64,000 nucleotides of DNA from Zoroaster sp. YZ-2022 (taxonomy: Eukaryota; Echinodermata; Asteroidea; Forcipulatida; Zoroasteridae): positions 15,474,369 to 15,538,368 of the forward strand of contig CM055837.1 in the NCBI GenBank assembly GCA_029582265.1. The letters are read 5' to 3'. Made by a program: the position numbers and the translations under genes. The notes below the pieces were generated by a model. It was not told the DNA's origin and did no database searches. It saw only the letters and a program-made list of their open reading frames with translations. This document shows positions 5,368-31,557 of the stretch, piece after piece (the stretch's first letter is position 1; the number at the start of each line of letters is the position of its first letter).

Positions 5368-5688
5368 TTAACCCTCCTATATACAGTGCAGTTGCCATAG
5401 AATTGTCAGACCTTTCAAAACCTTTCAAGTTTGCTGTACTGAAGGGTTTTGAAAGGTGAGAAAACTGTCTGACAAAAGGGACCTATGAAAGGTTTCGAAA
5501 GGTGAAACAACTCTCTGAACAAACTGGTGTTGAAATGTTTCAATACCTTTCAAAGGGTATTGAAAGGTGTGGTAGTTCAGTAGCAACAAATTCTGGAGGG
5601 TTTTAAAGGGTTCATACATTATTGATAGCCATTTTGCCAGTAAGCAGATTTTGAAAGGTTTTGAAAGGTCAAACCATAGGAGGGTTAA
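5368..5688. mobile_element. TTAA element, subfamily A, GAAAGG word
   Basis: TTAACCCTCCTATATACAGT ... CCATAGGAGGGTTAA. The interior has nine GAAAGG/CCTTTC words, mostly as TTTGAAAGGT, in both orientations at irregular spacing. Confidence 0.83.
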
Positions 5689-5716
5689 TGAATGGGAATA
5701 ATAGTTTGACACTTGG

Positions 5717-6134
5717 TAAGCTTGGGCGACATCGATTTTTTTCATCCACGATATATCGGCAAACATATATCACGATTTTCAATAATGTCGCGATTATTTT
5801 TTCATTCATGCATGATTGCTTTAGAGCCGATAACCACAGGTATATACCCCTCTACAAGCGTCTCAATAAATCGCAAATTCGTTTGCATAGTGTGTACGTA
5901 CTTCTGAAGTAGTTCGCTTTTGTTTCTCACTTCCAAAAGCTGAAAAGATTGTTCTAATTTTGTTTCCATGGAATTTCTGACTTGACTCACAATGTCAATT
6001 TTTTTTTAATCACAATATATTTTTTTAATCGCGATTTTCCGATATCTTGATAACTTGAAAAGGTTCTCGATATCGTAATCGAATAAAAAAAGGTATCGCG
6101 ATATTCGATATTATCGTGTTATCGCCCAAGCTTA
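5717..6134. mobile_element. TIR element TAAGCTTGGGCGA with ATCGCGAT words, 5-bp TSD
   Basis: TIRs TAAGCTTGGGCGA and TCGCCCAAGCTTA, flanked on both sides by CTTGG (5712-5716 and 6135-6139). The interior is dense in ATCGCGAT/CGATATCG-type words. No coding capacity. Confidence 0.78.
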
Positions 6135-6139
6135 CTTGG

Positions 6140-7121
6140 TTGGCCGTAAAATTTTGCTCAGCAAAAAATTGCCGAGTGAAAGTTTCTGGTAAACATCTCT
6201 ATGAAAATGTTCCCCATCTGTCAAGCCTTGTCTTTTGAAGGATGAGGAGGCTAATGGCTGAGCGGGAACAGGGATATAAGGAAGGTGCTACAGGAAGTTA
6301 TAAATCAACGTTGTCCATTCAGTCCTATATCACAGGACCATTAGTAAGGTGACCTTTAGATAATGCAATGACCAACGGACACAAAACTGACCAGTCCGGA
6401 ACCCCAGGAGCTGATATTTCACCTGGATAAAGCTGCACCTGTTCAAAGTGGCTGTCTAAACAAATTTAGGTAAAGTTGTGGATACAGTGTCCACTTGTAT
6501 CATTTTAAGCTGCCTCTTATTATCCTGACATATTTGGTGCAAGCTGTTGACACATATGACTGTGGCCTTCTGTTTAGCTACAACAAGGTTCCACCACCCC
6601 CCCCACAGTAACCAGAAATAGACTACATGTAATATCGACCTTACCTCTGAGTGGAACAGCCATGAGCAAGCATTTACCTCCCTACACATCACTGCAGTAG
6701 TATATGTACAACAGGATTATTTAAAGTTTTTGAAAATTAACGTTTTGCAGTTGAAATGGTTTATTTCACGTATTACAGGTTTGTATAGTTAAGGGAGGGG
6801 GTGGGAGGGCATGTTCCGCAATTCTTTTTTTGTGGGTCCCTTTTTCCATGTGGCCACCTCCCCCCCACCCCCCCCCCCACCCCCTTGAGACCCTAGATCC
6901 GTATTTGGCTCTAATGGAATCTCTCGTCCATTTTACATCTTTACAATGTGGGTAGATTTGTCAGATGTAGGATCAACAAATTTGAGCTGGTTAAAACAGT
7001 AGTTCGGAAAAATCCCAGAGACATGGACAAATAATTTTTAGATCATTTCTCTTCTCTAACTCTTACATGTAAATAGCACCAACATTGTTCACACTGCACA
7101 AATATAGTTAAAGCACAAACA
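6140..7121. other. Low-complexity spacer with G-tract/C-tract pair
   Basis: 6791-6890 has a G-rich run (GGGAGGGGGTGGGAGGG) and, about 60 bp on, a C-rich run. They could pair or form quadruplex structures. No gene seen. Confidence 0.55.
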
Positions 7122-7124
7122 TTA

Positions 7125-7675
7125 GCACAAAAATAGATTTAACCCGTGAAATATAGTTGACACACCAACGTTATGCACAAATATAGTTGACGCACCAACA
7201 TAACGCACAAATATAGTTGACGCACCAACAAAACGCACAAATATAGTTGACGCACCAATAAAACGCACAAATATAGTTGACGCACCAATAAAACGCACAA
7301 ATATAGTTGACGCACCAATAAAACACACAAATATAGTTGACGCACCAACATAACGCACAAATATAGTTGACACACCAACATAACGCACAAATATAGTTGA
7401 CGCACCAACATAACACACAAATATAGTTGACGCACCAACATAACGCACAAATAAAGTTGACGTACCAACATAATGCACAAATATAGTTGACGCACCAACA
7501 TTAGCACAAAAATAGATTAAGCACACAAATATAGTTGACGCACCAACAAAACGCACAAATATAGTTGACGCACCAATAAAACGCACAAATATAGTTGACG
7601 CACCAATAAAACGCACAAATATAGTTGACGCACCAACATAATGCACAAATATAGTTGACGCACCAATACTGCACA
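7125..7675. repeat. 30-bp tandem array (about 18 copies)
   Basis: Unit ATAGTTGACGCACCAACATA + ACGCACAAAT. As 30 is a multiple of three, several minus-strand frames stay open; these are not genes. Interrupted once near 7500-7525 by a variant spacer. Confidence 0.96.
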
Positions 7676-7973
7676 AAAGATGCATTAAAATGAACAATCC
7701 ATAAGTTTTGCTATTTCACCAGTTTGTTGGTTTTCTAAATCACATGTATATTTGCTGTGTAAATGGGAAATAAATTACTTTTAAATGAGATACATGTACA
7801 TGTATTTCATAATTGTCGCAGCACTCTCTTTGGTGTAATTATTGGATCTAAATTGTATTTATCATACTGCAACTTAAATTCATTCACTCATGTAATTACT
7901 GTTTATCCATGTGCTGGTTATTTATATGGACAATTCCATGGTTACGTTTTGGGTCCACTCTTAATGCTATAAT

Positions 7974-8246
7974 ATATATTTCACTCATCAGTTTTTTCAG
8001 AGTAGTTGCGTTATATCCAGACCTTACTCAACACAAAATAATAACTTCAGAAATTTGTTATACATGTATGTATGCTGTATAAGAGAAAATGCAACACTTT
8101 ATGCATGTTCGAAAAATGTAACATGAGTAACCAGCAATTTTCTCTTATATAGCGTACATAACAAATTTCTGAAATTATATTTTTGTGCCTAGTACAGACT
8201 GGATATAATGCAACTTCTGTGAAAAAAAAAAATGAGTGAAATATAT
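7974..8246. mobile_element. AT-flanked MITE, ATATATTTCACTCAT TIR
   Basis: ATATATTTCACTCATCAG and CTGGATATAATGCAACTTCTG... AATGAGTGAAATATAT form about 45-bp imperfect TIRs; the inner arms (AATTTGTTA and TAACAAATT) also pair. Confidence 0.75.
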
Positions 8247-8271
8247 AACGAAATTATGGCATTAACCCTCC

Positions 8272-8737
8272 TACTATAAGTGCAAATTTGTGAACAAACC
8301 ATTGAGGCCACTCTAAGCCATTGTTATGGAAGGCAGTGGCTCCTAATGGCTATACTGCATAGTAACATAATACCTCATATGTCTGTTGGTTTTAGTGGTT
8401 TGTTATTGATGTATTGCAGGGCATACTATTATGTTCCAGTGTCAGTGGCTGGTGGTGGCTTACTCTTGAGAGTCTGTGTTTACAAAATAACTGCTGAAAA
8501 TCCCTAATGATAGTTTTTTTTTACAGTGGTCTCCAGTGGCCACAGAGTTTTACATACAAGATTACTTACAAGGGTTAGTGTGGCTTATATGCACAAATGA
8601 TATGTGTACAACATATTGGACATTTAGTGGTTGGGAGTGGCCTCAATGTGTAACAGGGTTAAGAGTGGTCCCAATACATCCATGCACCGGTTATTTATGC
8701 ATACTTCCTTGGAAGTTGAGAATGATCCAGGAATTAT
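8272..8737. mobile_element. TTAA element, subfamily A, GCCACT word, left part
   Basis: Begins TTAACCCTCCTACTATAAGT; the interior has repeated AGTGGC/GCCACT words. No own right TIR before the next TTAACCCTCC at 8738, so it is truncated or shares the right end at 9054. Confidence 0.65.
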
Positions 8738-9054
8738 TTAACCCTCCTACACATTGAAGCCACTCCCAACCACTAAATTCTGTTCTTTAGCAACTTTCAG
8801 TACATACACGTACAAGACTGCTGTCCTTTCCAAGTAATCTTACAAAATCAACTGTGTGCCACCCAAGGCCACTGTAAATGTTTGAACATATTAGTATGGC
8901 CTGCAATGTATCAACGGGAGACCACTTTACCCTGCAATCTCAGCGGTGTGACAGTGCACAGAAGGGTAACCATAGGAGGCCACTGGCAACAGTTAATGGC
9001 TTGGAGTGGCCTGAATGGGTTGTTTAAAAATTGCACTGATTGTAGGAGGGTTAA
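8738..9054. mobile_element. TTAA element, subfamily A, GCCACT word, complete
   Basis: TTAACCCTCCTACACATTGA ... GATTGTAGGAGGGTTAA. An inverted copy is at 59934-60235 and an interrupted copy at 33241-34390. Confidence 0.82.
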
Positions 9055-9371
9055 AGTAGTCTGATGACAGGGATAATAATGTAAAAAGCGCCTCGAGCGT
9101 TACATCATGATGTAACATAAAAAAGTTATTTTATTAGCAGAAGAAAAATTTAAAGATTATGACATATTACTTTTAAAAAGATTCACATAGAATAAGCATT
9201 AATTTGTACATATAAATATGTAATCAATATGATTACATTGGGTAATTGTTTCATACTGAACTGACACCCAATATAAATATAAATTTAAAAAAGTTTTTAA
9301 AAAAATATTAAAAAGTTGGTCAAACACCAAAAACATGGGAAAAAATTGAGGGGCCTTACCAGACTGACCTT

Positions 9372-9541
9372 TCATCTTACGTCCTCGATGCCATAGTTGA
9401 GCTTGAGTTTGGCCAATCTCTCTTTGACAAAGTAATAGAAGTCGTACTCATAATGCATTATTCTCTTCATGATGGCGTCCGCTTCAGAGGACGGTTTCTC
9501 TTTGTTCTTGGTCACTGTTTTTGCTTCTTGCTTCTGTGGAT
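9372..9541 (-). CDS. UST: UST exon 8 (C-terminal exon, stop TGA)
   Basis: 170 bp from TTTTTTACAG to TGA at 9374-9372. Translates DPQKQEAKTVTKNKEKPSSE and then the conserved IMHYEYDFYYFVKERL. The last codons read GAGGACGTAAGATGA, so the stop overlaps a good donor consensus (GTAAGA). Either the protein ends here, some 50-60 residues shorter than human UST, or it splices onward to an exon I did not find. Confidence 0.85.
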
Positions 9542-12500
9542 CTGTAAAAAACAGAATGAAATTGCATTTTGTAATTATTATTAACCCTCCTACTACTACA
9601 AGGGTCAAAATCAGTGAAAATGTTGATATGCCTGCCTTGGTTATATCTAGTTCACTTAAAAGTCAAACACTGTCAAACCTTACGTGTAGTAAGTACATTT
9701 ACAGGTCAAAATGAGTTGACTGTTTATGACTAGTAAAAGCATTGTCTGGTATTGTTCAGGGTGGTCAAAATGACAGTAAAAACCAGTCAAAAATGCCCCC
9801 TGTGTGCACAATTGGGTCAACAGTCAAAACAGGCAGTTGACTGATTTTGACCTCTATAGCAACTTCCCACTAAAGTGCGGCTATAGCAGGAGAGTTAAGG
9901 GAATACTCTTTTCACCACATGGCCACGACCAATAAAGAACCATGCCTTCGGCTTAGTCCTTTATTGCCTGTGGCCACAACCTAGAGGTCTTGAGGAAATG
10001 ACAATATCAAACTTTTATTCCCCATTCATAAATGCCCATCTCGATTTTCAAAATGTCAATATTCAGTCATTGTATTGAAAAAGATCCAGAAAGAATGGAT
10101 GGAAAGGATGGATGAAATTTCCAATTTGGGCAAAAAAAGTCTCCGGTTTTTGGTCTCCCCGCGAGTCGCCTCAGACCCGCGCATCAACAGTTTTAGTTAC
10201 ATGCTAACCAAATTTATGTTTCTGTTTAGCATGGCACAATGTGACGGTGCATGAGCACCGCTTAACATGAAATTCTGCACTTATGGACAACACTTTTCTT
10301 CTTACAGGAAAGCTGCGGAATTTTAGCAGTTGACAAAGTTACACAAACTTTGCATGCACACAGACAAAAATCTGTGCTTAAACACACATTTACGTTAAGT
10401 GCATAATTGTCTGCATAGTAAGTGCCAATTTGACGCTTACAGCATAACGGAATAAGCAGAACCAAGCCATTGGGCCCAGGGGCCAATTTCATACAGCGCA
10501 AAGCATTCAAATTTGCTAAGCCCCAAAAAATTATGCTTAGCAAAAATAGGTTACCAGGCAAATTGTCACGTAATGTATACTGCTTTTGGCAGGTTCTCAG
10601 CTAAATCTTGTATAGCAGATAAATTTACTAAGCAATAGTTTCTGCCAAGCAACTCTATGAAAATAATCCCAGGTCTTGGACATTATACAAATATAACATG
10701 GTTTGAGGGCGGACAGTCGATATTAGCTTCCTGAGGTATTGGAAGTTGACAAACTAGTTCCCGAGGCGAAGCCGAGGGAACTAGTTTGGGGAGCTAATAC
10801 CGAGGGAAGCTAATATCGACTGTCCACCCGAAATAAACCATGCTATATTTGTTTTACTATACCTCATACATATTCAGTTGCCATTACAATAAGGAGCTCG
10901 GGAAAACGCGAATTGACATTTACGTGTGCCGCCATCTTTTCATGTGTATGTAGCTAGGGCGATGTTCGCGCGTGCGTACTACACCCATGCGACTGTTCCC
11001 CGCCGGGACTGTTCCCGATGCGACAGTCTACTACGCACTACTACTTGGGTAACGTCTATTCGAGGTTAAGTTACAGAATAAGACAGCCAATATGGCTGGA
11101 TTTCCTTTTTAATGGGAATTTTAACACAAACAGGAAAGACTTAATAACTAAAATTGTCACATTGAGTTTAATCAGCCCAGCGATTTACGGACTTCCCGAG
11201 GGACCAGTGAAAATGTCCATGTATTAAAACAGGCATTTACTGTACAATGCCAACAGTTGATGTATTTATCAATGTGTAACCTCTACATGTATATAGTGGG
11301 TATGAATAGATAAGTGTCTATTTTGCACACTAATCTGTATACTAGTATAATTGATATGGGGGGAGGGGAGGGGGGGAGGGGGGTTTTTGACATTGGTGCA
11401 GTGTGCTGCAAATCTCAAGGTTTCACCAATACGCTCATGCATCATCAAACTTTTCCCATAACTCATATGTGACCTGCACTGTGAAAATGAGTCACAAGTC
11501 GCAAATTTGAAAAATTGAGATTTGTATGTGGATGGAAGAGTACATTATTAATTTGGTATATGCTAGAGGTGTGTGACGTATTGCATTATGGAGATGGGTC
11601 ATTTTTAATAATCAATCATTTGCGTAATTAACACAATTGAATTCTTAGGAAAACAAGCATTTGAAAGGAAAACAAATGACAGAAATGAATCAACCTACTC
11701 ACAAAAAATCATTGATTTTAATTTTTTATGGATTGAAATTGACGTCAATTTCAATCAATAAAATATTAAAGCCACATAGAAATCTCAAATTTTCAAATTT
11801 GCGACTTGTGACTCATTTTCACAGATCGGGTCACATATTGTTCCCCATAACTCATATTGTTCCTTGTACTTACAGTAACATAGTCTGGGCTAACATGGGC
11901 GGATCCAGAACATTTTTTAGGGGGGGGCTGAGAATCAAAAACAATTATTTTTCAGTACAGTACTAAGTAGGTCACATCTTTATGTTTATCCCGCACACTG
12001 TGGGAATGGGAGTGTGTTCTCCCCTCCCCTCCCCTCCCCCCTCTCTTTTTCTCTCCCTTTTTTTTATTAAATTTTATTTTATTTTAAATTTATTATTAAA
12101 AAAAAAACGATTTTAGGGGGGGGCTACAGCCCCCTTGGATCCGGCAATGGCTAATAACTGCTCTATCATTTTAAATTTGTTCTCCGGAAAAACCCTTTTT
12201 TTGGAATTACAGTACTGAAATGACCAATTATGGGACACAGTGTCCACCGGCAATCTCACACAGGTGTGTGTGTGTTCCTAAGACGGGGCCAGAAGAATAA
12301 CTCAGTTCAGGTGGAAATGTACATAATAATAATAATAATAATGTGTGGACTTATGTAGCGCGCGTATCCACCAACTGAGTGGTGCTCAAGGCGCATTATA
12401 TTATTACCCCTGCTCATAAGGCTCATAAATCATTCCTGAAACCATCTCAGCTCCCTGGGGAGTATACAGCTCAATTGCTGCCATTACAGCGCATATAGGG

Positions 12501-15500: not shown

Positions 15501-18500
15501 GTTCTTATCAGAACCACAATCTTACTTCAAGATCATTGAGATTCAAACCACATGGTATTACCATATTGCAAATATCAATATCTTGTGAATTATTAGTCAA
15601 AACCAGTCAAAAATGCCCCTATGTGCACAGTTGGTTCAACAGTCAAAAACGGTCAGTTGACTGGTTTTGGTGTCATATTTATTTATGTCTGAAAAGTTTG
15701 AATTTTAATCTTGCTCATCAGACTGCTCATCAGGCACATAAATCATTCCTGAAACCATCTCAACTCCCTGGGGAGTATACAGCTCAATTGCTGCCATTAC
15801 AGCGCATATAGGGCTAATCAAACAACAACCAACTCTGCCCTCACAGGTACCCATTTACCCCTGGGTGGAGAGAAGCAATTATGGTAAATTGTCTTGCTCA
15901 AGGACATAAACACCATGGTCCAAAAAGTGTGAAATATAATCCACTGTGGTGTTGGGATTAAGAAAGGTGCTAGCTGCCTTTTGTAAACAAAACTCTTTCA
16001 AAATCTAGATATGTGGAGTGGCATGGTTGAGTGGTTTAGTGCATCGGATTTGTGTTCTGATGGCTGAGTCATCAGAATGTGGGTTCGAATACCAGCCGCG
16101 ACCATGGTGCTTGTGTCCTTGAGGCAAGATACTTTACCATAATTGCTTCTCTCCACCCAGGGGTAAATGGGTACTTATGAGGGCAGAGTTGGTTGTTGTG
16201 TTTGATTAGCCCTATATGCGCTGAAATGGCAGCAATTGAACTGTATACTCCCCAGGGAGCTGAGATGGTTTCAGGAATGATTGATGCGCCTGATGAGCAT
16301 TCTGATGAGCAAGATTAAAATTCAGACTTTTCAGACATATTTTATGTAATTAGCATGTGCATGAAGACACATGATGTAAATTTATCTTAAAAATTATTAT
16401 TCGGCGACTGCAGGCAATAAAGCATGCAAACCAGGGATAATATGCGTAGTCCCTTAACAATGACCCTGTGGTAGCTGCTGTTGGAGTGCATAGCGCCCTC
16501 TGTAGGCCGTGACCACAGTCGATAGGTCAACAGCATGATTGTAATGATGTATGTCACACCATGGAGGAAGAAAACAGAAGGAGTCACAACGAAGGCATAT
16601 CAAAGGTTCAATGTCTTTTGCCGTGGTCGTAAAATTTCTAAGCCAGCGCTAATCGTTTAATCCGATTATCGAGGAGAACTACAGCCAGGCTTTCTTTGCA
16701 CATGCGCATTGCGCATTGCTGACGCTGCTGTCCTATTGCACTACACGGAAGGCTGGCTCCCGATCCAACTCGACCTACTAATCCAACACTGCAATATCTT
16801 CATTGCACAGCATCGCACAAATATGAGGATTGAAATGATAAAAAGCTAAACAACACGTCTTTGAATGTGACAATTTGTTGGCTTCCGGAGATCACCGGAA
16901 ATATCCTTAAAAAAAGTTGCTAAAAAGACACTTTATTGTAACATCTGAATGTTATATTTACCGTAAGTCAGCTTCGATTCGCCAACCGACGATCAAAACA
17001 CCAAAATACTCGTGGAAAAATCGCTATTGAAGACAATGAACTGCGCAATATAAAAGCTCATGAAAAGTAGTGCGTGATAATGCTTTGTGTTTATTCGCTT
17101 GCTACAGATTTCTACCCTCCAATTATGTATGCTGGTCGCGAGCAGGCCGAGCGGCAAAAGACATTGTACACAAGGGGATTATCGCGGTCGTTAAACTTGT
17201 AAGCGCAGTGGGTGGCCGTAACGTATTTCCAATGGGCCACTCCGAAGTGCTAATTGGTTATGAGATAAGAGGCTGGGCGATGTGACTCCTTCTGTTTTCT
17301 TCCTCCATGGTCACACATACTGCTTCTGCATGCAGCTGCCATTACAATGTACACAAAATACGTCGAAATTATAAGGCTTATAACGTTATGATCAATGCTT
17401 ATTGTATGCAATCTTAAGGGAACACGGTCAAAGTCGTGGTACAGGCAAGCCTATTGATACTAAAAGTGTACATTTTATACACACAACAGCGGAATTTCCT
17501 TTGAAGTCTCCACCAAATGTAGTCTGCTTTGGGCTAGGCCGTCCAGAAGCCCGGCGAAGAACATATTTTTTTTTTATCTAACCAGAAATGTATCTTTGAT
17601 ATTCTTTCCCTCAATAATTTATCTGTGACGTATTGACACTGATGTTTCTGTTTTCACAGGACAATTAATTGTTTGGACTTAGAAAAGATTGAAGTTGCAA
17701 CTCATTCATGTGATTTTTTTAACCGTATATTCGTAAGCAATATCTTAACCCTAACCCTCCAGGGTATTTTGGCTAGAATCCCTGCCAGACGCATCAGATT
17801 GCATCGTTTGTCAAAGTGACTTGGCTGCCCAGTGCAGCAAGATCCATCAGGTCACAAATCTCAAGGCCGAACTGCCTCAGAGTCTGTGGTCACCAAACGC
17901 AGCAGGATACAACTCTGGCATTGTTCAATGGGACCAGCTCTCAATAGCCTCAGACTTGGCTGCTTCTGCACTGGTGTTGACAGCTGAATGCATCAAAGTG
18001 CACCAGACTTTTCCACCTGATGCACTGTGCTGCGTCTGGCAGGGTTAGGGTTAAAGTTTTCAATTCGACTCCCTGCCACCAGACAACACCAAAACAAGTA
18101 AAAATAAATGTAACATACAATTCTCAAAATACGGTTTAATTTTTAAAATGTGGATATATGCCAAAATCTTACCTGCATGCTTTCTGCTGACCACAGAAGA
18201 ATGGGATGATGTAAAAACTTCCCTTCTCAGTACATTCCTTATGAGAATGTAAGATGCACTCTGTGACAGACTACAACAAAGAGGGCAGTATTCAGTTGTA
18301 AAGTGGTCAAAAAAACGAAAGGAAAAGAATCCTGAAAAATGGTTTGCGGGCCTGGGTCTCCTTTTGGTCTTGAGGAATAAGCCTCCTGAACCTCCTGGAT
18401 GTTTAACTTTTGACTCTCTACATCCCAAGAAACTAGAAGTTTGGACACAACACAGGCTACTTCTTTTCTTTCAAGAACATTTTGAGGCAAAGGGAGATTT

Positions 18501-24500: not shown

Positions 24501-27500
24501 TTCATAAACCTCCAGCAAAATGAATAATTTATGTATGCAAATTTATTTAAACCAATTACTGTAAGCAAAATGCTGGGGGTTGTCTATATTTAAATAAGTG
24601 ATACCACAACAAACTAGTTACCTAATGCATTATGTAAAATTAACATACACTTATCTCTACCAAATCGGTAGAGAAATATTCAGAAAAACATAAGACCACA
24701 GAACGGACTGGTAAAGGCCTTTGGGGCATCCACTACTCGTGTGCGTGGTCTTTTTTCCTGTGTTGTGTTCTGGGCTGCCACGTTGACCTTGCTTACCAGA
24801 AAAATCTGGTTAGCAGATTGATTTGTTACCAGCCAAACGCTCATAAACAAAAGTGTATGCATTTTGGCTGGTAGACCGTTTAATATTGCTTAGCAAAAAA
24901 TATTTGCTTAGCAAAATTCTCTGAAAAGGCAGCTCTAAGAAATTGGCCCCAGGGCCCAATTTCATACAGCAGCTAAGCAGCGGATTTTTTGCTTATTGTA
25001 GGTTTTTCATTTCAAACAAATGTAGCCCTGCTAACCGTTAAGTATAGAGAACGGCACGCTAACTTGCTGGCCATGATTGCTAGCAAGTGAGTGACACAAC
25101 AAATTCAAGGTAAACATGCACGCGCCACTCCGAATTTTCTTGCTAACCTGTGATTTTTTTTTGCTATAGTTAGCATGAAAATTTGCTAACCGGTAAGCAA
25201 CGCTGTGAAATTGTACCTAGGTCTTAAATTTTAACAGCCACTTCCTCCTTTGCCCTGAGTTTGGCCTTGGCGACCACTTAATGTCTGATATTCTAATGGA
25301 AGTGCCATTTACTCAGGAAAAAACAACTTGCCCATACAAGAATGACATTCTGCAGGGTTTCATTTAGGATTTGGAAACAACCAGTCCAAAATGAGCTAGT
25401 TGGTGAGTGCAAAGCACTAATTTTGAGCGCCCAAGCCATTACAGTGTGGGGGATAGGCTCCTATAGGACCCTGGAAAGATTTGGATTAGATTCTCTCTCA
25501 TGCAATCTGACGACTTTCCATAAATACCTTTAGATTCAATTAGACTTTAACAGGCTTACTCAAACAAGGACAGACTAGATAATTGACAGTGGACTGTCCT
25601 GGACAGGTAGGCTTGGCAGGTTGGGTTTAAATAGTCCCAACTTGTCCAAACCGATTTTGACCTGTCTTGGGGACAGGTGCGTGGAGATGGGTGGCTAGAT
25701 GAGACCCTGGTCACATGTATTGGCAATACACTAATCCAGAATTAGCCAAAGTCCTCCCTCCCCTCATAATGTGTACTTATATAGCGCATGCATGGATCAA
25801 CCAAACTGGTGCTCAAGGCACCTTTATTACCCCTGCTCATCAGGCTCATAAATCATTCCTGAAACCATCTCAGCTCCCTGGGGAGTATACAGCTCAATTG
25901 CTGCAGTTTTTGGCACATACAGGGCTAATCAAACAACAACCAACTCTGCCCTCACAGGTACCCATTTACTCCTGGGTGGAGAGAAACAATTATGGTAAAG
26001 TGTCTTGCTCAAGGACAGAAGCACTATGGTCACAGTCAGGATTCGAACCCACATTCTGACGACTCAGCCATCAGAACTCAAATCCGATGCACTAAACCGC
26101 TCGACCATGGCACTCCATAACCACAGGACTGGATATCTACATGTACATGGCATGTACATGTATGAGTTGTATATCATTCGACAAGTGCCCCAGAACAATA
26201 ATATTGAAAATTGAGAGCTCTAGACCACCAACCATAGAGCTGGATAGCGTAATAGTTCTTAGAACAACAGTACTTACAGTTATCTGAAGATTACAGGTTC
26301 GGTACAATGTTTTTTGTTCACACCCCAAAAAGTTGAGATTTCTTTTCCCCTTTTGTGTGAATAGTTTGAAATATTGTTTAAAAAAAAATTGATCATAGAT
26401 TTGAATTACTTAACCTTTGTATGTCTCAGGTGCAAACATGTGATTTAAAAAACAAAAGCGAAAATATACATCACCTTCCACTCTTTATTCTCTTTGTCTT
26501 GAATTGGCAGACTTCTATACGATATTGGATCTCTGTCATTCCAAAGATAAAGATTCCTTTTTAACATTGGTTTCAGCGTTTTAATCTGCATCATAGCATC
26601 TCGTATGGTACCCTGAATCACTTTCCTTGTGTTGTCTACTGACTGGTCTCCTGGTATGGCACCCCGTAGCACCATGCCCGTTTTGTTCGTTTGCGACCGG
26701 TGCTTTTCCGCATTAGTCAGGTCCCATGCAGTGTACTTGTTTGATGGGTCTAGTTCCCGCCTCTCTGTTGGGACAGTCTGGATAGATGAGCTCCCAATGT
26801 TCTCTACATCTACATGTATTTCATCAGAGGAACTTCTTGAGTTGCTCCTTGAGAGTGACTTATCTGTTTTGTATCAGAAAAGAACACGGCAAAATTACAA
26901 TTTCTTCTTAAAGGTACGTACAGCATCGGTAAAGCACCTGATAACAAAATAACTTCAGAAATTATTATCCGAAAGTTAATTTGATGTATAGTTAACTCCC
27001 TAAGCCCACTTGCCTACACACAACCTCAATCCTCCAATATCCTTCAGTAGTAAAGCAAGCACAATGACCACTACCACTGGTACCTGTATGCAGACTACAT
27101 GTGTTTCCAATCTGTGATATATGTACATGGCCCAGGGCCAGGGACCCTCCCTGCATGCATGGAGCAATAAACAGTGTCCACTGACCCAAGCACTGACCTT
27201 GCAATCACTACAATAAATCTGGATGTGCATGTACTAAAAGGCAAGTAGGCCTAATAACCTCAATCCTCCAGAATCATTTTTTGGACAGACCAACATGTAC
27301 AGTGTAACCTCAATCCTCCATTTTAGATAGATAGATAGATAGATATAACTTTATTAAATCCACAAATCTGGAAATTACATGTCATCGTCTCTCATTAACA
27401 AAAAATATTAACATTTAAGTTATTAAGATACATCATAAGTCGTATCAAAATTACACATCAAAACATTACCACATCACACAAGCACAAACAAATCCATACA

Positions 27501-30500
27501 ACTGAATTAAAAATGTATCCCACAATCACCTTAAAAATAGATACCGGTATATGTTCTCTTTATCTTGTAAAATTATCATTATAATGTTTGATGGCCCTGC
27601 CAGTGAAGGAAGAAGGATATCGGTTCGTGTTTGCCATCACTGGTCTCAGTCTACCGCTGCGAGAGATGATGTTACTTGTCAATCGGCTGTGGATAGGATG
27701 ACCAGCATCTTCCCACACCCATTTTCATCTAATGTCAAATATTCGCACCGTGCATGAGCTGTTGAGGGCACATGTTGTTAGACCACTGTGGGCGAAAGGG
27801 CAGCGATAGTGCGTCGCGTTTGGCGTATTTTGCAGTTGATGTGTGTACGCGCGGAATATCTCCAGCGATCATTGGCTGGTAGAAGTACACGCGTGTGTAG
27901 TACCATAACATACGCGCATAAAGTGTACGCACAACGCTCAGACGACGCTTTCATCAAGACACTGGGTGCAAATTCACTGCTAGAGGGCTACGATGTGCAC
28001 TGAGAGAATAGCCGGATCACCTTGATCCTCCATAATCCACCATGCAAATAATCACATTTGTCCTCAATCCTTCAAAATCCTTCACTTTAGCAAAGAGCAT
28101 TTTGGAGGATTTGGGAGGGTTAGGGTTAATAGTGAATTAGCCGTTTCAAACTGCTTACCAACCTAAATGACCTGTAGTATAAATGCAAAATAATGTTTAT
28201 TGTAGCAGGTTCTTCCTCAAAGGCAAAATGAGACACATGCTTGTGTTCACGTATGACTGTGCGTTTCAATTGTCTCATTTTGCCTTTGAGAAAGAACCTG
28301 CTAAGTTCAAAATGTAAAGTTGGTAAATAAATTTAAGTCCTCTCATTTCATTGAACTCACAAACAAATTTTGAGTGCTTTTCCACTCATGACTTAGACTC
28401 TGTATTGAGATGAAACTTTCAGAGGATGGTTGTTTAACGGTAGCAATGCTCCATGCAATAAGATGAGAGTTGTTCTTCTCGATTTCATGGAGACTTGATT
28501 TGTATTTATTTACTTAAAAATATATGCATGGAGGCTTCTCCTTTTGGTGCCAAAAGGAGAGGCCTCCTTGCATATATTTTAAGTAAGTAAATTACCGTCA
28601 AATACAGAAGTCTTTCGCAGAATCCGGAAGAGTTGGCAGCTCTGTAAGATGCAACAAGATGCAACAAAAGTAAGAAGTGGTTGCATCTTGTTGCCCTCAG
28701 CAAGAGAACAGAAGAACCATTGTTTTAGCTGGTGGATCTTGTTGCATTGAGCCAGCCTACACACTTTTCTGTTGTTGCATTTTATTGCATTCAGCAGGGT
28801 AATAATAATAATAATAATGTGTGGATTTATATAGCGCACGTATCCACCAACTAAGTGGTGCTCAAGGCGCATTATATTATTATCCCTGCTCATAAGGCTC
28901 ATAAGGCTCATAAATCATTCCTGAAACCATCTCAGCTCCCTGGGGAGTATACAGCTCAATTGCTGCCATTTCTAGCGCATATAGAGCAAACCAACTCTGC
29001 CTTCACAGGTACCCATTTAACCCCTGGGTGGAGAAAAGCAATTATGATTAAGTGTCTTGCTCAAGGACACAAGTGTCACGGCCGGGATTCGAACCCACAT
29101 TATGTTGCTAACACCAGAACTTGAATCCGGTAAAGCTAGACCGCTCGGCCACGACACCCCATAGTGGCAGTTTTGTCCACACCTCCCCTTTAACCCTAAC
29201 CACCCCAAACCATTCCAACTCCAACAGCAGGGTTTGTTGTATTTTGATGGACTCGATACTGTATAGCCCAGACAGGGATACTTTACATGGGGCCGGGTGT
29301 CCCAATTCCAGCTACATGTAAGTCCAACAGTTGGGTGGTAGTGTTACTGCATGGTGTTGTATTTTGATGGACTCAGTACTGTATAGCCCAGACAGGGATA
29401 CTTTACATGGGACCGAGTGTCCCAATTCCAGCTAAGTCCAACAGTTGGGTGGTAGTGTTACTGCATGGTGTTGTATTTTGATGGACTCAGTACTGTATAG
29501 CCCAGACAGGGATACTTTACATGGGGCCAGGTGTCCCAATTCCAGCTAAGTCCAACATTTGGGTGGTAGTGTTACTGCGTGGTGTTGTATTTTGATGGAC
29601 TCAGTACTGTAGCCCAGACAGGGATACTTTGCATGGGGCCGGGTGTCCCAATTCCAGCTAAGTCCAACAGTTGGGTGGTAGTGTTACTGCATGGTGTTGT
29701 ATTTTGATGGACTCAGTACTGTATAGCCCAGACAGGGATACTTTACATGGGACCGAGTGTCCCAATTCCAGCTAAGTCCAACAGTTGGGTGGTAGTGTTA
29801 CTGCATGGTGTTGTATTTTGATGGACTCAGTACTGTATAGCCCAGACAGGGATACTTTGCATGGGGCCGGGTGTCCCAATTCCAGCTAAGGCCAACAGCT
29901 GGGTGATAGTGTTTGTGTATGGTATTGGATTTTGGTAGATTCAGGAAGGTTCTTAGCCAAAACAGTTAGGGGTTAGGGCTAAAAGACCACTTCACACATG
30001 CAGCAATTAGTGGCCCTCATAATCCCAACAAAAAATCAATAAAAAACTTGAACTGTCCATTACAAATTCTGCTGTATTTGACTACCAACAAGTTGTATGT
30101 GTGGAGTGTCATGGCCGAGCAGTCTAGTGCATCAGACTCAAGTTCTGTTGTTGTTAGAATGTGGGTTCGAATCTAGTCGCGGTGCTTGTGTCATTGAGCA
30201 AGACACTTGACCATAATTGCTTTGTCCTTCAGATGGGATGTTAAGCTGTAGGTCTCGTGTACTAGATTATTAACCCATGTGCCTGCAAGGGTCAAAATCA
30301 GTCAAAATGTTGATACTTGCCAAGATATATCTAGTGCAGTTAAAGTCGAACACTCTAAAACCTTATGTGTAAAAAGTACATTCACAGGTCAAAATGAGTC
30401 GACCGATTTTGACTGGTAAAAGCATTGTCTTATATTGTTCAGGGTGATCAAAATGACAGTAAAAACCAGTCACAAATGCCCCTATGTGCACATTTGGGTC

Positions 30501-30934
30501 AACAGTCAAAACAGGCAGCTGACTGGTTTTGACCACTATAGACTACTATTGACCACTACAGCTACATAGGAGGGTTAAAGTATGGTAATAGGATTTTTTT
30601 TTACTTTTGTCATATCAGACTCCTGTTGTAAAAAACTTCCACTCAACTTACCTCTTCTTTTCCACCCACCATCTTGTAAATCCCCTTCAGACATCCCTAT
30701 CATTTTGTTAGTCAGGTGTTGAAGTGTTCTTTGCTCGTCAACGGAGCTACCAAATCGCTGTTTGATCCCTACATGTTTCTTGCTTGATTGGGTAACCCTA
30801 TGGCCCACCCATCGCCCGGTCAAGTTGATCAAAATTAAAGTTAACATCGCTGCGATGATGACCAGTGAGGCTAGCACAGTTCTCCGTGAAGGCAGTCTCG
30901 TTAGGCAAGTTTTCTCTTCCACATGTACCTCCAT
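9372..30934 (-). CDS. UST: Uronyl 2-O-sulfotransferase (UST), gene span, 8 coding exons
   Basis: Golgi type II membrane enzyme that transfers sulfate from PAPS to the 2-O position of uronic acids in chondroitin/dermatan sulfate (family knowledge). I joined eight exons by GT-AG sites with matching phases: 30934-30652, 26863-26475, 23976-23830, 22340-22261, 20062-19924, 18270-18173, 14162-14011, 9541-9372. They give 485 residues (human UST is about 406). Seen: a signal anchor at about residues 19-38; a long variable stem to about 224; the 5'-PAPS loop NRVGKCGSRS (232-241); HLHF (292-295), whose first His aligns with the catalytic His of the 2-O-sulfotransferases; the 3'-phosphate motif INIIRDPLSR (309-318); and FYIIPFFCGQ near 366. 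The FCGQ and WALDRAK blocks fit UST better than HS2ST. The C-terminus is shorter than in vertebrates. Introns are packed with transposons. Confidence 0.93.
9581..9898. mobile_element. TTAA element, subfamily A, GTCAAAA word
   Basis: TTAACCCTCCTACTACTACA ... AGCAGGAGAGTTAA. Eleven GTCAA/TTGAC words in about 310 bp. Lies 40 bp upstream of the UST exon 8 acceptor. Relatives at 13338 and 30270. Confidence 0.8.
9899..10473. other. UST intron 7, dispersed repeat fragments
   Basis: 9925-10080 shares CATGGTCYTTATTGCCTGTG and CCCATCTCGATTTTCAAAAT with 47570 and 56230-56530. The rest is unrecognised. Confidence 0.5.
10474..10680. mobile_element. GGCCAATTTCATA element with GCTAAGCA words
   Basis: Begins GGGGCCAATTTCATACAGCG; many TGCTTAGC/GCTAAGC words in both orientations, like 19530-19710 and 24773-25222. 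Confidence 0.65.
10688..10852. mobile_element. Short palindromic TIR element (TAGTTCCCGAGG type)
   Basis: ACAAATATAACATGGTTT and AAACCATGCTATATTTGT ends; nested pairs GGACAGTCGATATTAGCTTC with its complement and ACTAGTTCCC/GGGAACTAGT at the centre. Confidence 0.72.
11340..11385 (+). other. G-rich low-complexity tract
   Basis: Runs of 4-7 G separated by single A (11357-11383); sequence compatible with a G-quadruplex on the plus strand. Confidence 0.6.
11465..11838. mobile_element. MITE with about 65-bp TIRs (ATATGTGACC)
   Basis: ATATGTGACC ... GAAAATGAGTCACAAGTCGC at the left pairs with GCGACTTGTGACTCATTTTC ... GGTCACATAT at the right. The interior is AT-rich and non-coding. Confidence 0.82.
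11895..12152. mobile_element. MITE, GGCGGATCCAG type, copy 1
   Basis: GGGCGGATCCAGAAC ... TTGGATCCGGCAATG with GGGGGGGCT runs just inside; GGCTAA occurs on both flanks. An inverted copy is at 36191-36403. Confidence 0.78.
12326..12668 (-). mobile_element. SINE-1, full length
   Basis: (AAT)n tail at the left; tRNA-like head at the right with minus-strand B box GGTTCGAATCC and A box TGGCCGAGCGG. Confidence 0.88.
12910..13318 (-). mobile_element. TTAA element, subfamily B, about 2 internal 44-bp units
   Basis: TTAACTCTAACCCTCCCAAA ... GGGAGTTAGGGTTAA. Same core as 3498, 47773 and 61001 (GCAAAGAGCATGTAGC, GGAAAGGCAAGTATGCC words), TTAA at both ends. Confidence 0.83.
13338..13640. mobile_element. 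TTAA-type element, GTCAAAA word, eroded ends
   Basis: AAAACCCTCCTGTGACTGCA ... GATTTTGACCACTATAAAGA, aligned throughout with 9581-9898 and 30270-30578, but neither terminal TTAA is intact. Confidence 0.7.
13653..13901. mobile_element. TIR element AAGGGCCAAAGTCATGG with GGCCTGGG words
   Basis: About 45-bp inverted ends (AAGGGCCAAAGTCATGGTAC / GTACCATGACTTTGGCCCTT). The interior is built from AAGCCCGGCC, GGCCTGGG and their complements. Relatives at 17416-17560 and 60356-60660. Confidence 0.78.
14011..14162 (-). CDS. UST: UST exon 7
   Basis: 152 bp. Translates QPSQWALDRAKQNVKDHFIA, then VGILEDLENS and FEKLLPRYFTGVIELFK: the C-terminal helices of the sulfotransferase fold (WALxRAKxNV, VGxLExL, LPRxFxG). 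The donor AAAGGTAAGA leaves one base, which exon 8 completes to Asp. Confidence 0.95.
14309..14535 (-). mobile_element. SINE-1, head missing
   Basis: Tail TTAATAATAATA, CTCCCCGGGGAGTATGCA and GTCTTGCTCAAGGACACA; diverged older copy. Confidence 0.75.
14536..15690. other. UST intron 6, internally repeated GCAGCCAAAATTGCTGG segment
   Basis: A segment at 14860-14930 (GCAGCCAAAATTGCTGGATC) recurs at 15125-15180. Poly-A 14955-14977 and poly-C/poly-A near 15280. No exon recognised. Confidence 0.5.
15683..16345. repeat. Inverted pair of SINE-1 copies (15700-15910 minus, 16010-16345 plus)
   Basis: Both outer flanks carry GTCTGAAAAGT...GAATTTTAATCTTGCTCATC or its complement, so the palindrome extends beyond the SINE bodies. 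The right copy has a complete tRNA-like head (TGGTTGAGTGG, GGTTCGAATACC). Confidence 0.82.
16558..17311. mobile_element. 754-bp TIR element, ACCATGGAGGAAGAAAACAG
   Basis: About 29-bp TIRs ACCATGGAGGAAGAAAACAG and its complement, continuing AAGGAGTCAC. The interior is more CpG-rich than its flanks and has no recognised domain. Confidence 0.75.
17745..18054. mobile_element. TTAA element, TTAACCCTAACCCTCC ends, TGCATC/GCAGCA words
   Basis: TTAACCCTAACCCTCCAGGG ... GGCAGGGTTAGGGTTAA; CTGCCAGACGCA / TGCGTCTGGCAG extend the TIR. Shares GTATTTTGGCTAG with 22906 and 59452. Confidence 0.8.
18173..18270 (-). CDS. UST: UST exon 6 (Cys-rich FCGQ segment)
   Basis: 98 bp. Translates SVTECILHSHKECTEKGSFY then IIPFFCGQQKAC. 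The paired Cys and the FYIIPxFCGQ motif are typical of UST. The acceptor is TTGTTGTAG, the donor GCAGGTAAG; the two leftover bases (AG) join exon 7 to give Arg. A hAT-like repeat begins about 30 bp upstream of the acceptor. Confidence 0.94.
18300..18546. mobile_element. hAT-like repeat, copy 1 (one 58-bp unit)
   Basis: AATCCTGAAAAATGG ... GAGGCAAAGGGAGATTTGTA ... CCTGAGAAACCACAAGCCTG. Same repeat as 52162-53436 and 55928-56216 with a single copy of the segment that is expanded there. Left TIR eroded; begins about 30 bp from UST exon 6. Confidence 0.72.
18927..19342. mobile_element. MITE, TGACATAAAACAC TIR, copy 2
   Basis: Same family as 1534-1830. The right half is nearly identical to that copy; the left TIR is diverged (TGACATAAAAATAGC) and the core is longer. 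Confidence 0.78.
19530..19710. mobile_element. GGCCAATTTCA element with GCTAAGCA words
   Basis: GGCCAATTTCACAGAACTGC at the left, GTATGAGATTGGGCCC at the right; GCTAAGCA repeated between, plus paired CCAGCCAAAATGC / TTTTGGCTGG. Confidence 0.68.
19716..19888 (-). mobile_element. SINE head, TGTCCCATCC variant
   Basis: Minus-strand A box TGGCCGAGCGG and B box near 19826; body TTTAATGTCCCATCC as in 53954-54144. Ends about 35 bp from the UST exon 5 donor. Confidence 0.75.
19924..20062 (-). CDS. UST: UST exon 5 (3'-phosphate binding motif)
   Basis: 139 bp. Translates YHAKQPAYINIIRDPLSRMV and then SAYYFRRFGDG, the PAPS 3'-phosphate-binding strand/helix of HS2ST/UST enzymes. The acceptor is CCTGTAG; the donor is AGGGTAAGG, phase 0. 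A SINE head ends 35 bp past the donor. Confidence 0.95.
20178..21046. mobile_element. TTAA element, subfamily C, with 97-bp array
   Basis: TTAATCCTAACAACCCC ... GGGGGTTAGGATTAA. Word CCATCAAA / TTTGATGG throughout. An AT-tailed fragment (20728-20910, GTATAGCGCACAAATCC) is inserted inside a unit. Confidence 0.8.
20284..20730. repeat. 97-bp tandem array (about 4.5 copies)
   Basis: Unit from ATGTGTACCAAATCCATCAA to CATTTGCCACTGTACCA; starts at 20284, 20381, 20478, 20575 and 20672. Copies differ at a few sites. Confidence 0.96.
21326..21985 (+). mobile_element. SINE-1 interrupted by a second SINE-1
   Basis: Outer copy 21326-21436, resumed at 21804-21985 (AAGACACTTTACTGTTC...). Inner full-length copy 21440-21803 with head TGGCCGAGCGG, GGTTCGAATCC and an (ATT)n tail. 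The outer copy is more diverged, hence older. Confidence 0.83.
22261..22340 (-). CDS. UST: UST exon 4 (catalytic His region)
   Basis: 80 bp between TTTGCAG and the donor TGAGTGAGT. Translates KYIVKSLDRVKTPYLFQRHL then HFVNFS. The PYLFxRHxHFxNF block matches UST and contains the likely catalytic His. Too short to appear as a notable open frame; found by searching for the missing domain. It leaves two bases (GA), which exon 5 completes to Glu. A 266-bp MITE begins 26 bp upstream of the acceptor. Confidence 0.93.
22367..22632. mobile_element. 266-bp Tc1/mariner-like MITE, copy 2
   Basis: Same length and essentially the same sequence as 2119-2384. Lies 26 bp upstream (gene sense) of UST exon 4, so it reaches the branch-point zone of that intron. 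Confidence 0.83.
22906..23156. mobile_element. TTAA element, subfamily D (CTAGGTATTCTGGCTAG)
   Basis: TTAACCCTAACCCTCTAGGT ... GATATGCGGTTAA. Inverted relative of 59452-59732, sharing CCAGTGCACTTTTGG and AGTGCCCCTTGGAGGATTTT. Confidence 0.78.
23200..23345 (+). mobile_element. SINE-2 head (second tRNA-derived family)
   Basis: GATCGAGTGGTTAAGACATC (A-box region) and GGTTCCAATCC (B box), followed by CGAGTCACCTGTGGAG and AGCACTAAGTATACAGTGC. Relatives at 48378 (+) and 54225 (-). Confidence 0.72.
23390..23757 (-). mobile_element. SINE-1, full length
   Basis: (AAT)n tail, complete body, tRNA-like head ending CGCTCGACCATGGCACTCC. Lies about 70 bp from UST exon 3. Confidence 0.88.
23830..23976 (-). 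CDS. UST: UST exon 3 (5'-PAPS binding loop)
   Basis: 147 bp, 49 codons, phase 0 at both ends. Translates RNEAIIFNRVGKCGSRSV and onward; GKCGSRS is the 5'-phosphosulfate-binding loop of this sulfotransferase family. The acceptor is CAG with an alternative AG two bases downstream; the donor is CAGGTGAGT. Confidence 0.94.
24000..24772. other. UST intron 2, no feature recognised
   Basis: AT-rich, no TIR pair or splice-bounded frame with similarity seen. CACACATGATGGCGAGTGGC region (24420-24500) is unrecognised. Confidence 0.45.
24773..25222. mobile_element. GGGCCCAATTTCATA repeats with GCTAAGCA words
   Basis: Two adjacent, oppositely oriented ends meet at CCAGGGCCCAATTTCATACA (24948). About 12 TTAGCA/TGCTAA/GCTAAGC words on both strands; ends AACGCTGTGAAATTGTACC. 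Confidence 0.65.
25223..25770. other. UST intron 2, GACAGGT/GACAGTCC-rich spacer
   Basis: 25560-25680 repeats short words around GGACAG, CTGTCC and TTGTCC but lacks clear TIRs. No exon seen. Confidence 0.4.
25771..26117 (-). mobile_element. SINE-1, full length
   Basis: Complete body and tRNA-like head (GGATTCGAACCC, GCTCGACCATGGCACTCC); the AT tail is mostly gone. Confidence 0.85.
26475..26863 (-). CDS. UST: UST exon 2 (luminal stem)
   Basis: 389 bp, open in one frame, between AAACAG and the donor AAGGTGATG. It completes a GAT codon split with exon 1 and ends in phase 0. It encodes a Ser-rich start (SLSRSNSRSSS) and a charged stem ending in NKEWK. The stem is weakly conserved, so the exon is placed mainly by splice sites and by phase agreement with both neighbours. 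Confidence 0.85.
26994..27315 (+). mobile_element. TTAA element, subfamily B, degenerate copy
   Basis: TTAACTCCCTAAGCCCACTT, then the subfamily B core (CCTTCAGTAGTAAAGCAAGC, CAATAAACAGTGTCCACTGA); right TIR absent. Confidence 0.7.
27320..28015. other. (GATA)n and unclassified CpG-rich stretch
   Basis: 27326-27345 is GATA repeats running into ATAACTTTATTAAATCCAC, which resembles a retroelement 3' tail. 27600-28000 is CpG-richer (GCGCGG, ACGCGTG) without a recognised gene. Confidence 0.45.
28016..28129. mobile_element. TTAA element, subfamily B, terminal fragment
   Basis: ACCTTGATCCTCCATAATCC ... TTTGGGAGGGTTAGGGTTAA: the non-array end of subfamily B only. Confidence 0.7.
28204..28302. repeat. 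Hairpin element AGCAGGTTCTTCCTCAAAGG
   Basis: 32-bp arms AGCAGGTTCTTCCTCAAAGG... and their complement around a 35-base loop. One arm alone recurs at 39772-39806. Confidence 0.78.
28507..28592. repeat. 86-bp near-perfect hairpin
   Basis: Arms ATTTACTTAAAAATATATGC ... CTTCTCCTTTTGG pair with CCAAAAGGAGAGGCC ... TAAGTAAGTAAAT with a 2-base loop. Probably a tiny MITE; a hairpin RNA cannot be excluded. Confidence 0.72.
28600..28800. mobile_element. GCAACAAGATGCAAC word repeat
   Basis: AAGATGCAACAAGATGCAAC, GTTGCATCTTGTTGC, GATCTTGTTGCATT and TTATTGCATTCAGCAGG alternate strands. A related piece is at 39270-39362 (GGATCTTGTTGCACTCAGC). Confidence 0.6.
28801..29160 (-). mobile_element. SINE-1, full length
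   Basis: (AAT)n tail, body with CTCATAAGGCTCATAAGG duplication, tRNA-like head CCGCTCGGCCACGAC. Confidence 0.87.
29190..29982. mobile_element. TTAA element, subfamily C-like, with 114-bp array
   Basis: TTAACCCTAACCACCCCAAA ... GTTAGGGGTTAGGGCTAA. Internal TTTTGATGGACTC and CTGTATAGCCCAGACAGGG correspond to the 97-bp unit of 20178-21046. Confidence 0.78.
29239..29925. repeat. 114-bp tandem array (6 copies)
   Basis: ATTTTGATGG recurs at 29241, 29361, 29475, 29589, 29701 and 29815 (steps 120, 114, 114, 112, 114). The first unit has an extra ACATGTA. Confidence 0.95.
30104..30269 (+). mobile_element. SINE head, GATGGGATG variant
   Basis: TGGCCGAGCAGTCTAGTGCA and GGTTCGAATC followed by CTTCAGATGGGATG, the same body as 19716-19888 and 53954-54144. 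Ends at the next TTAA element. Confidence 0.72.
30270..30578. mobile_element. TTAA element, subfamily A, GTCAAAA word
   Basis: TTAACCCATGTGCCTGCAAG ... CTACATAGGAGGGTTAA. Homologous to 9581-9898. Confidence 0.8.
30652..30934 (-). CDS. UST: UST exon 1 (start, cytoplasmic tail, signal anchor)
   Basis: Codes residues 1-94 plus one base. The start is the ATG at 30934-30932 in context AAGATGG. The frame stays open nine more codons to a TTG at 30961, but an in-frame TGA lies just before that, so this ATG is the first possible one. A basic tail (RLPSRR) precedes a hydrophobic stretch TVLASLVIIAAMLTLILINL. The donor is GAGGTAAGT. A TTAA element starts 74 bp beyond the donor. Confidence 0.88.
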
Positions 30935-31182
30935 CTTAACTTCTCCCGATTTGTATTTCAATCAAAATTTAATAAAAAGGTATTTCAGTGGATGGTACAA
31001 GTGCCCTCTGCCGATATGCCTGTATGTTAAAACGAAAAGAAAAATAAATGATACTTTTAATCTGCAGCATTAAACCATTCATTAACAAATTTGATATAAT
31101 ATAATTTTTTTGTATCCTACAAACATGACCCAATTCTCATGGATGCTAAAAGTTGAACACTAACATTAATGAAAAAAATCAA

Positions 31183-31557
31183 TTAACCCTCCTACTTCTG
31201 GTACCTTTTTCATACAAGTTGATCCACCATTTGAAACCATTCGCTTTTGTGGTTTTGAATGGTGAAATAACTGTGTACAGTATTGATTCCCCCAAATGGT
31301 TTTGAATGGTAGGTCAGCTAATACAAAACCTTGTTTGGATCTCTCCAAATGGTAGTACAGTTAATACAAAACCTTGTTTGGATACTTCTAAGTGGTGAAT
31401 CAATGGACCCTCTATGCATTTGAATGGATTTGAATGGTAGTAAAGCTTGCTACCAACACTGTTCAAATGGTATCACCATGTGTGTACAAAACCAATGGGC
31501 ATTTTGGTAAGTGGAAATTTTGAATGGTTTCAAAGGGTCAAACAGTAGGAGGGTTAA
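31183..31557. mobile_element. TTAA element, subfamily A, GAATGG word
   Basis: TTAACCCTCCTACTTCTGGT ... AACAGTAGGAGGGTTAA. TTTGAATGGT recurs five times, with AAATGGT/ACCATTT variants. Sits about 250 bp 5' of the UST start codon. Confidence 0.82.

Follow-up and report, generated by a model that had tools for sequence, protein, structure and literature searches.

Short words repeated near the ends of the Ac/Ds, En/Spm (CACTA) and Tol2 transposons are sites for the transposase, and the piggyBac element of T. ni has the tip CCCT. Here, a stretch of 64,000 nucleotides from the sea star Zoroaster sp. YZ-2022 (assembly GCA_029582265.1, contig CM055837.1, forward-strand positions 15,474,369 to 15,538,368; "the window", numbered from its first letter) and further loci of the same genome were used to explore families of short elements at TTAA that carry common tips and, according to an original prediction made from the letters of the window, a private repeated word in each family. 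In the excerpted text of two sources on T. ni piggyBac, a 19-bp subterminal repeat lies 3 and 31 bp inside the terminal inverted repeats (TIRs; PMC10140906) and a subterminal palindrome is bound by two cysteine-rich domains (PMC11707139), and the latter excerpt also describes piggyBat from Myotis, with copies of GCGGGA plus a palindrome spaced by 44 bp on one end and restriction by one inner site. Excerpts on other TTAA elements describe the coral CMITEs as piggyBac-type miniature inverted-repeat transposable elements (MITEs) with tandem arrays and CC[C/T]T tips, a hallmark of the piggyBac superfamily (PMC2872659), and the Xenopus Kolobok T2-MITEs as elements with many subfamilies and common tips (PMC6004289).

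T. ni piggyBac shares with the Zoroaster elements a TTAA target, a CCCT tip and, as the excerpts describe it, a subterminal double site that lies further in on one end than on the other. Its site is an inverted palindrome with an offset of 28 bp, whereas here the site is a direct 10-bp repeat with an offset of 23–25 bp, and internal copies and family-specific letters are present here, unlike in T. ni piggyBac. Ac/Ds, En/Spm and Tol2 belong to other superfamilies with other tips and, probably, other target duplications, and we know of no fixed 24-bp end offset in any of them. The families described below also differ from piggyBat as it appears in the excerpt (PMC11707139) and from the coral CMITEs, which, according to the excerpted text (PMC2872659), combine a conserved interior with variable TIRs, while the elements studied here combine conserved tips with variable words; the TTAA target, the tip type and the tandem arrays are alike in the latter comparison. 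With the Kolobok T2-MITEs the target and the many subfamilies with common tips are shared, but the tips described for Kolobok are RR (AGGRR in T2) and those found here are CCCT. Subterminal transposase sites are already well known, and the new part is a series of families with fixed geometry and private words, of which no report was recognised in searches of open-licence papers.

The tips are abundant throughout the genome. Across 1.002 Gb in 616 contigs, the 12-mer TTAACCCTCCTA occurs 22,979 times in forward and 22,921 times in reverse orientation, against 35 and 32 occurrences of the reversed pattern, although the total of 45,900 exact tips is inflated by tandem arrays. The window holds 23 tip matches with at most two mismatches (6.2 expected), and the common ends proposed for the elements are present at 5368/5688, 8738/9054, 31183/31557, 58979, 59048/59417 and 9581; for the last of these the left end is as predicted and the right end (9887–9898) carries two mismatches to the 12-mer. 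Elements with paired tips were collected as 64 entries from 50 loci and the window, with most loci from C1, many of them from one dense stretch (C1:4.15–4.78 Mb); about 15 entries come from two tandem arrays (L027 and L040), of which they are nested parts. When the entries shorter than 560 bp were clustered by coverage, seven families emerged: F1 (word GTCAAA, 21 entries), F2 (ACCATTYRAA, 10), F3 (GCCACTCC, 7), F4 (ACTCAA, 7) and the small families F3b, F5 (ACCTTTCAAA) and F2b with two entries each, and the 13 leftover entries are longer, nested or interrupted. Consensuses of 316–478 bp were built from 12 (F1, limited to entries of 240–330 bp), 10 (F2), 7 (F3), 6 (F4, one entry dropped) and, for F3b, F5 and F2b, 2 entries each, with mean pairwise identities of 0.92, 0.97, 0.94, 0.89, 0.83, 0.98 and 0.97 in the same order. 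Most of 138 ends with at most one mismatch belong to these families; the others comprise two tandem satellites plus seven singletons, among which are divergent family members. A further set of elements, recognised by the tip TTAACCCTAA, has a similar layout and at least three more words, in G1 (AATCCTCCAA), G3 (AATCCATCAA) and G2 (CGCATC).

The elements are short, non-coding and present in many copies with TIRs, as MITEs are, and no open reading frame (ORF) of 120 aa lies within those of the window. TTAA stands on both ends as the duplicated target, and for 7 of the 64 entries the joined flanks match related uninterrupted sequence at 74–87% identity. Eight family representatives, five with CCCTCCTA tips and three with CCCTAA tips, all carry CCCT on both ends, the tip by which they were collected, and in all eight the subterminal sites lie at different distances from the two tips, as is known for T. 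ni piggyBac. Because of the TTAA target and the CCCT tips, we infer that the elements are non-autonomous MITEs of the piggyBac superfamily. Elements of the CACTA (En/Spm) type have CACTA tips and a 3-bp target duplication and those of the hAT (Ac/Ds) type an 8-bp duplication; CACTA is ruled out by CCCT tips together with TTAA, so the likeness to CACTA elements drawn in the original prediction stands for the mechanism only. Kolobok, with termini given as 5'-RR..YY-3' in the excerpt of PMC9587614, is ruled out by the CCCT termini.

The main result is a ruler common to the families. When the two ends of an element were compared by ungapped local alignment at offsets from −60 to 60, tip excluded, the family consensuses matched best at 24 in F1, F2, F2b, F3, F3b and F4, at 23 in F5 and at 25 in G2, and the within-element pairs of the eight representatives at 24 in F1–F4, 23 in F5 and 23, 24 and 25 in G1, G3 and G2. 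An offset of 23–25 is thus found in 8/8 representatives compared to 57 of 1200 shuffled ends, and entry by entry (at least 180 bp) in 39/63 at 24 and 4/63 at 23, with five of the seven F4 entries at 24. Scoring of all pairings of short with long ends left 2 of 40,320 permutations equal to or better than the true one, itself included, and swapping the G1 and G3 ends scores slightly above the true pairing. Within a site zone that was picked after inspection, the best self-lag is 10 bp in all eight short ends and seven of eight long ends, against 245 of 3336 TTAA sites without a following CCC in the same short-end zone. The short end carries two direct 10-bp half-sites from about bp 16 and 26 and the long end two from about bp 40 and 50, with starts at 39 in the F5 long end, 41 in the G2 long end and 17 in the G1 short end. 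The spacing of the words, first described as irregular, is therefore misdescribed in part, as words are often paired 10 bp apart at a fixed distance from the tip.

This layout can be followed in the window. The F5 element at 5368..5688 (321 bp, exact ends, with a 97.8% identical copy at L038:6334–6654) carries its long-end double half-site at 5410..5429 (+; bp 39–58 from the tip, offset 23) and its short-end double half-site at 5650..5669 (−; bp 16–35), and the F3b element at 8262..8662 (word GCCACT, right tip mutated to CCCTGTTA, family offset 24) has these at 8305..8324 (+) and 8624..8643 (−). In the F3 element at 8738..9054 (317 bp) the short-end site lies at 8757..8776 (+) and the long-end site at 8992..9011 (−), in this copy 1 bp off the family register, while the F1 element at 9581..9898 (318 bp) has its short-end site at 9600..9619 (+) and its long-end site at 9836..9855 (−); a second F1 copy at 30270..30578 has a degraded left tip and is about 2 bp off register. 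The F2 element at 31183..31557 (375 bp) carries a long-end site at 31226..31245 (+) and a short-end site at 31519..31538 (−), and the G2 element at 17745..18054, with tips TTAACCCTAACCCT and an offset of 25, carries them at 17789..17808 (+) and 18016..18035 (−). One F4 element, with the left tip TTAGCCCT, lies at 57127..57491, and another at 58979..59417 has its 69-bp long end tandemly duplicated (58979 and 59048), a long-end site zone at 59091..59110 (+) and a short-end double half-site, AACAATCAAA GACACTCAAA, at 59379..59398 (−).

The words are private versions of one common frame and not unrelated. Among 32 terminal half-sites from eight families, C7 occurs in 29, A1 in 26, A8 in 24, C3 in 22 and T6 in 21, approximating AnCnnTCAAA, from which F3 is by eye the most divergent. 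Positions 2, 4 and 5 agree within families (0.65–0.85) and not between them (0.19–0.27), half-site identity averages 0.70 inside a family and 0.45 across families, and none of 5000 permutations attains the agreement of short-end with long-end half-sites within families. Total replacement of the word between families was rejected, the identity of 0.30 between G1 and G2 having stemmed from a 1-bp misregister; in register their words are related by eye. Nor are all interiors unrelated, as had been claimed, since the GAAAGG elements are related to the GAATGG elements, with words that differ in a concerted way: the F5 element at 5368 and the F2 element at 31183 are 85% identical over 41 bp of the short end including the tip, plus shorter pieces, and ACCATT is counted 10, 10 and 0 times in F2, F2b and F5 while ACCTTT is counted 1, 0 and 10 times. 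The long-end spacers of G1–G3 are alike (identity 0.61–0.68, reached by 0/200 shuffles in each of three pairs), and therefore tip and spacer are kept while the words vary; among F1–F5, spacers match at p ≤ 0.01 in 1 of 10 pairs (F1–F3).

The best k-mer count of each element was compared with 300 dinucleotide shuffles, under which the predicted enrichment held for three of the five named elements. In the 5368 element, with nine GAAAGG/CCTTTC, the best 6-mer count was reached by one shuffle and the 7- and 8-mer counts by none; no shuffle reached the best 5-mer count in the 9581 element, with 11 GTCAA/TTGAC, or the best 6-mer count in the 31183 element, with nine AATGGT. The chance expectation of under one given for the 9581 word applies to a word named in advance, whereas the best 5-mer of a shuffled sequence averages 5.3 copies, so that the excess is about twofold, yet real. 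GCCACT/AGTGGC is present in the 8738 element, but its four copies are matched by 61/300 shuffles, a weak enrichment, and none was detected for ACACTTG, tested in the copy at 59048, where 158/300 shuffles reach the best 6-mer count. Of the elements that had not been named, the one at 30262 is enriched, that at 8262 weakly so, and that at 57127 is enriched in words other than the named one (seven ATACAC, 2/300 shuffles; four TATATGCA, 3/300). With one mismatch allowed, the consensus words of F1, F2, F2b and F5 exceed all shuffles (0/100 each), F3 (1/100) and F4 (6/100) are marginal and F3b shows no excess (14/100). Among genomic 300-bp stretches without CCCTCC or GGAGGG, 28 of 213 reach a count of at least 8, several of them within tandem arrays, and word count alone is therefore no proof of function.

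Much of the word number can be explained by the duplication of modules. Neighbouring sites on the same strand, defined with one to three mismatches depending on the family, are exactly 10 bp apart in 16 of 42 cases, terminal pairs included, and 37 of 47 internal sites have short-end polarity against 10 with the other, a tally that includes each of two overlapping F5 hits and draws on related families that are not independent. Five of seven consensuses contain direct internal duplications, at lags of 43 bp in F2, 42 in F4, 46 in F5, 49/98 in F2b and 98 in F3b, while F1 and F3 show none at the threshold used. Tandem copies of whole ends occur at L027:1385–1968 and L040:3996–5300 (F1 short ends in units of 113–116 bp, one of 128) and in the window at 58979–59047 (the 69-bp F4 long end), and the junctions read ...ATTAACCCTCC in F1 and F4 alike. 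With these duplications and tandem ends, the unrecognised copying process offered in the original prediction is not needed. A fold-back or hairpin element was also considered and rejected: single strands fold better than their shuffles (z of −5.8 in the 5368 element, −2.5 in 9581 and −2.3 in 8738), but this leaves the register unexplained and can follow from words in both orientations together with inverted tips.

Transposases with the PF13843 domain (DDE_Tnp_1_7) are abundant in the genome, with 116 scored of 4548 first-look candidates and open frames in most of the 116. At four sampled loci, one whole element ends in TTAACCCTTTC and one 3' flank shows TTAACCCTTAG; the former, L051:240–3838, is a complete, piggyBat-like piggyBac element whose 502-aa ORF (PF13843 and PF13842) is intact, with TCAGTACCA three times (one with a mismatch) at 33–34 bp on one end and a 43-bp module on the other. 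It resembles the piggyBat end type, as the F and G families do not, and with its differing tips is not an obvious partner of either set. A protein in ENA data is 98% identical over 95% of the L051 query (P0001), and the nearest named relatives are transposases of Lytechinus at 41–43% identity. The 1.4-kb 3' flanks of the three other transposases hold no F or G tip, though for two of them the end may lie further out, and tblastn with the L051 protein alone gave no similar coding piece in the loci it was compared with.

On balance, we consider it likely that these are piggyBac-superfamily MITEs whose subterminal double sites dock the transposase, with the geometry fixed and the address variable. 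A transposase dimer would dock at the double site, using its C-terminal Cys-rich domain or some other DNA-binding domain, while its catalytic core would read the tip; an offset of 24 bp would fit an asymmetric transpososome. Families would diverge as transposase specificity shifts at half-site positions 2–6 and the sites of both ends follow, and the extra internal sites, mostly of short-end polarity, arose at least in part when segments were duplicated and may either increase avidity or limit it. The earlier proposal of binding sites that diverge with a matching protein is thereby favoured indirectly, by the position fixed from the tip, the 10-bp pairing, the 23–25-bp offset and the agreement of words between ends, while its matching transposase was not found among the sampled loci. 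Most parts of the underlying observation are thus real, its reading as binding sites is plausible, and from these patterns we infer the link to a protein.

Several results weigh against docking sites. Conservation of words and spacers within families is 0.905 and 0.894 in F1, 0.972 and 0.956 in F2, 0.944 and 0.942 in F3 and 0.975 and 0.912 in F4, and with circular-shift fractions of 0.23, 0.10, 0.48 and 0.32 the words are not clearly more conserved than the spacers; the original prediction had asked whether words are conserved while spacers drift, and by that criterion the lack of a significant excess for word columns counts against selection. We think, however, that this test is invalid for dead inserted copies, which are expected to drift uniformly, and that the comparisons between families and between ends are the informative ones. 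In the F2 consensus the word has decayed by eye within the 43-bp duplication while the spacer has held. The half-site frame was fixed post hoc, with 1-bp shifts for F5, G1 and G2, and the best skeleton match of further ends (a score that runs to 10, with three free positions) fell at the expected register in three of eight, one of them a tie. F2, F2b and F5, F3 and F3b, and G1 and G3 are not independent families. The F4 long end has no clear 10-bp pair, its consensus being the exception among the 16 ends tested, and the F4 end-to-end match is weak by score, with 21% of shuffles reaching it. Among intact CCCTAA-tip elements, 5 of 10 have offsets of 23–25, three being G2 copies, and two G1 elements of the window depart from it, at 47773..48356 (word AATCCT, best offset 20, with a long-end module that recurs in tandem every 44 bp or so) and at 59452..59732 (apparent offset 35, with a C-run in the right tip). 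F and G tips were found at none of the four sampled PF13843 loci, no transposase gene was found between F or G tips in the sampled loci, and a search for F1 ends around a non-MITE interior, with a pattern that catches about 6% of such ends, gave two hits, both 1-bp-shifted MITEs by eye.

Other explanations account for parts of the pattern. Neutral internal duplication, in which copied end segments or word modules multiply a word that has no binding role, draws on the duplications in F2, F4, F5, F2b and F3b, the tandem ends in L027, L040 and at window 58979 and the 37 to 10 bias in polarity, but we regard it as unlikely since it leaves unexplained the same word at fixed distances on both inverted ends across differing families, the 10-bp lag and the common C7, and since F1 and F3 lack duplications at the threshold used. 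It appears more improbable still that words phased at 10 bp act by bending DNA, positioning nucleosomes or binding a host factor and are not sites for the transposase. In F1, F4 and F5 the short ends do contain a phased A-run, formed by TCAAA at 10-bp spacing, yet F3 and G2 lack such runs and still show the lag and the offset, which rules out phased A-run bending; family-private letters that agree between ends would not be expected from bending, and the register is set from the tip. Descent of all families from one ancestral element, with the words as drifted remains, is probably true but not sufficient, and by itself has very little probability as the explanation: tips, register and skeleton are common and the G1–G3 long-end spacers are alike, but under drift alone the two ends of one family would not stay similar to each other when families have become different (0/5000 permutations). 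Gene conversion between ends could also mimic selection.

Further ends and repeats were recorded alongside these elements. An F3 short end without an identified partner lies at 33241..33279 (+), and an F3 long end with the tip AAAACCCTCCTA at 59935..59997 (+). The G1 long end occurs in tandem units of about 44 bp at window 47773–48060, 13318 (−) and 62052 (−), a unit close in length to the 43-bp module that the autonomous L051 element carries at one of its ends, and elements of 90–91 bp at window 38998–39087 and 60745–60835 have TTAACCCTAACTCCC tips on both ends and one central double word. F1 and F3 elements at L017:1501–2124 and L033:5472–6150 are split by a repeat resembling a short interspersed nuclear element with GTGTCGTGGCCGAGCGGTCTAG (tRNA-like by eye). 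A tandem repeat at L041:341–2227, with a unit of about 70 bp where inspected, starts with TTGACCCTCCTATTCTC, which nearly matches the F tip, and an AT-rich minisatellite around TTAACCCTCCTACTATT (L001:1455–1741 and L003:1444–1788) is possibly derived from the F1 long end. The window also contains a large 63-bp tandem array at 41852–46700 (74–75 copies reported), with frames open on both strands, and, by eye, an approximately 30-bp tandem repeat (CACAAATATAGTTGACGCACCAA...) at 7139–7660.

Words that look irregular in the interior of a MITE can hide a ruler that is invisible to k-mer counts, as in F4, which has no enriched word and yet has its best, weakly scoring, end-to-end match at offset 24. 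Should the words be docking sites, this single genome would contain a natural set of transposon ends that share their geometry but differ in specificity; the change of DNA recognition by a transposase and the insulation of MITE families would become directly testable, and the set would be a possible source of orthogonal piggyBac-type ends for laboratory vectors. More tentatively, the ends may form an evolvable address code, in which a fixed tip and ruler (the 10-bp pair, at 16/26 on one end and 40/50 on the other) are combined with positions 2–6 that define mutually insulated families, while the constant letters (C7 and the flanking A/T) would hold contact. Were this so, changes of specificity at a few bases, matched at both ends, would create new MITE families within one genome with catalysis unaltered.
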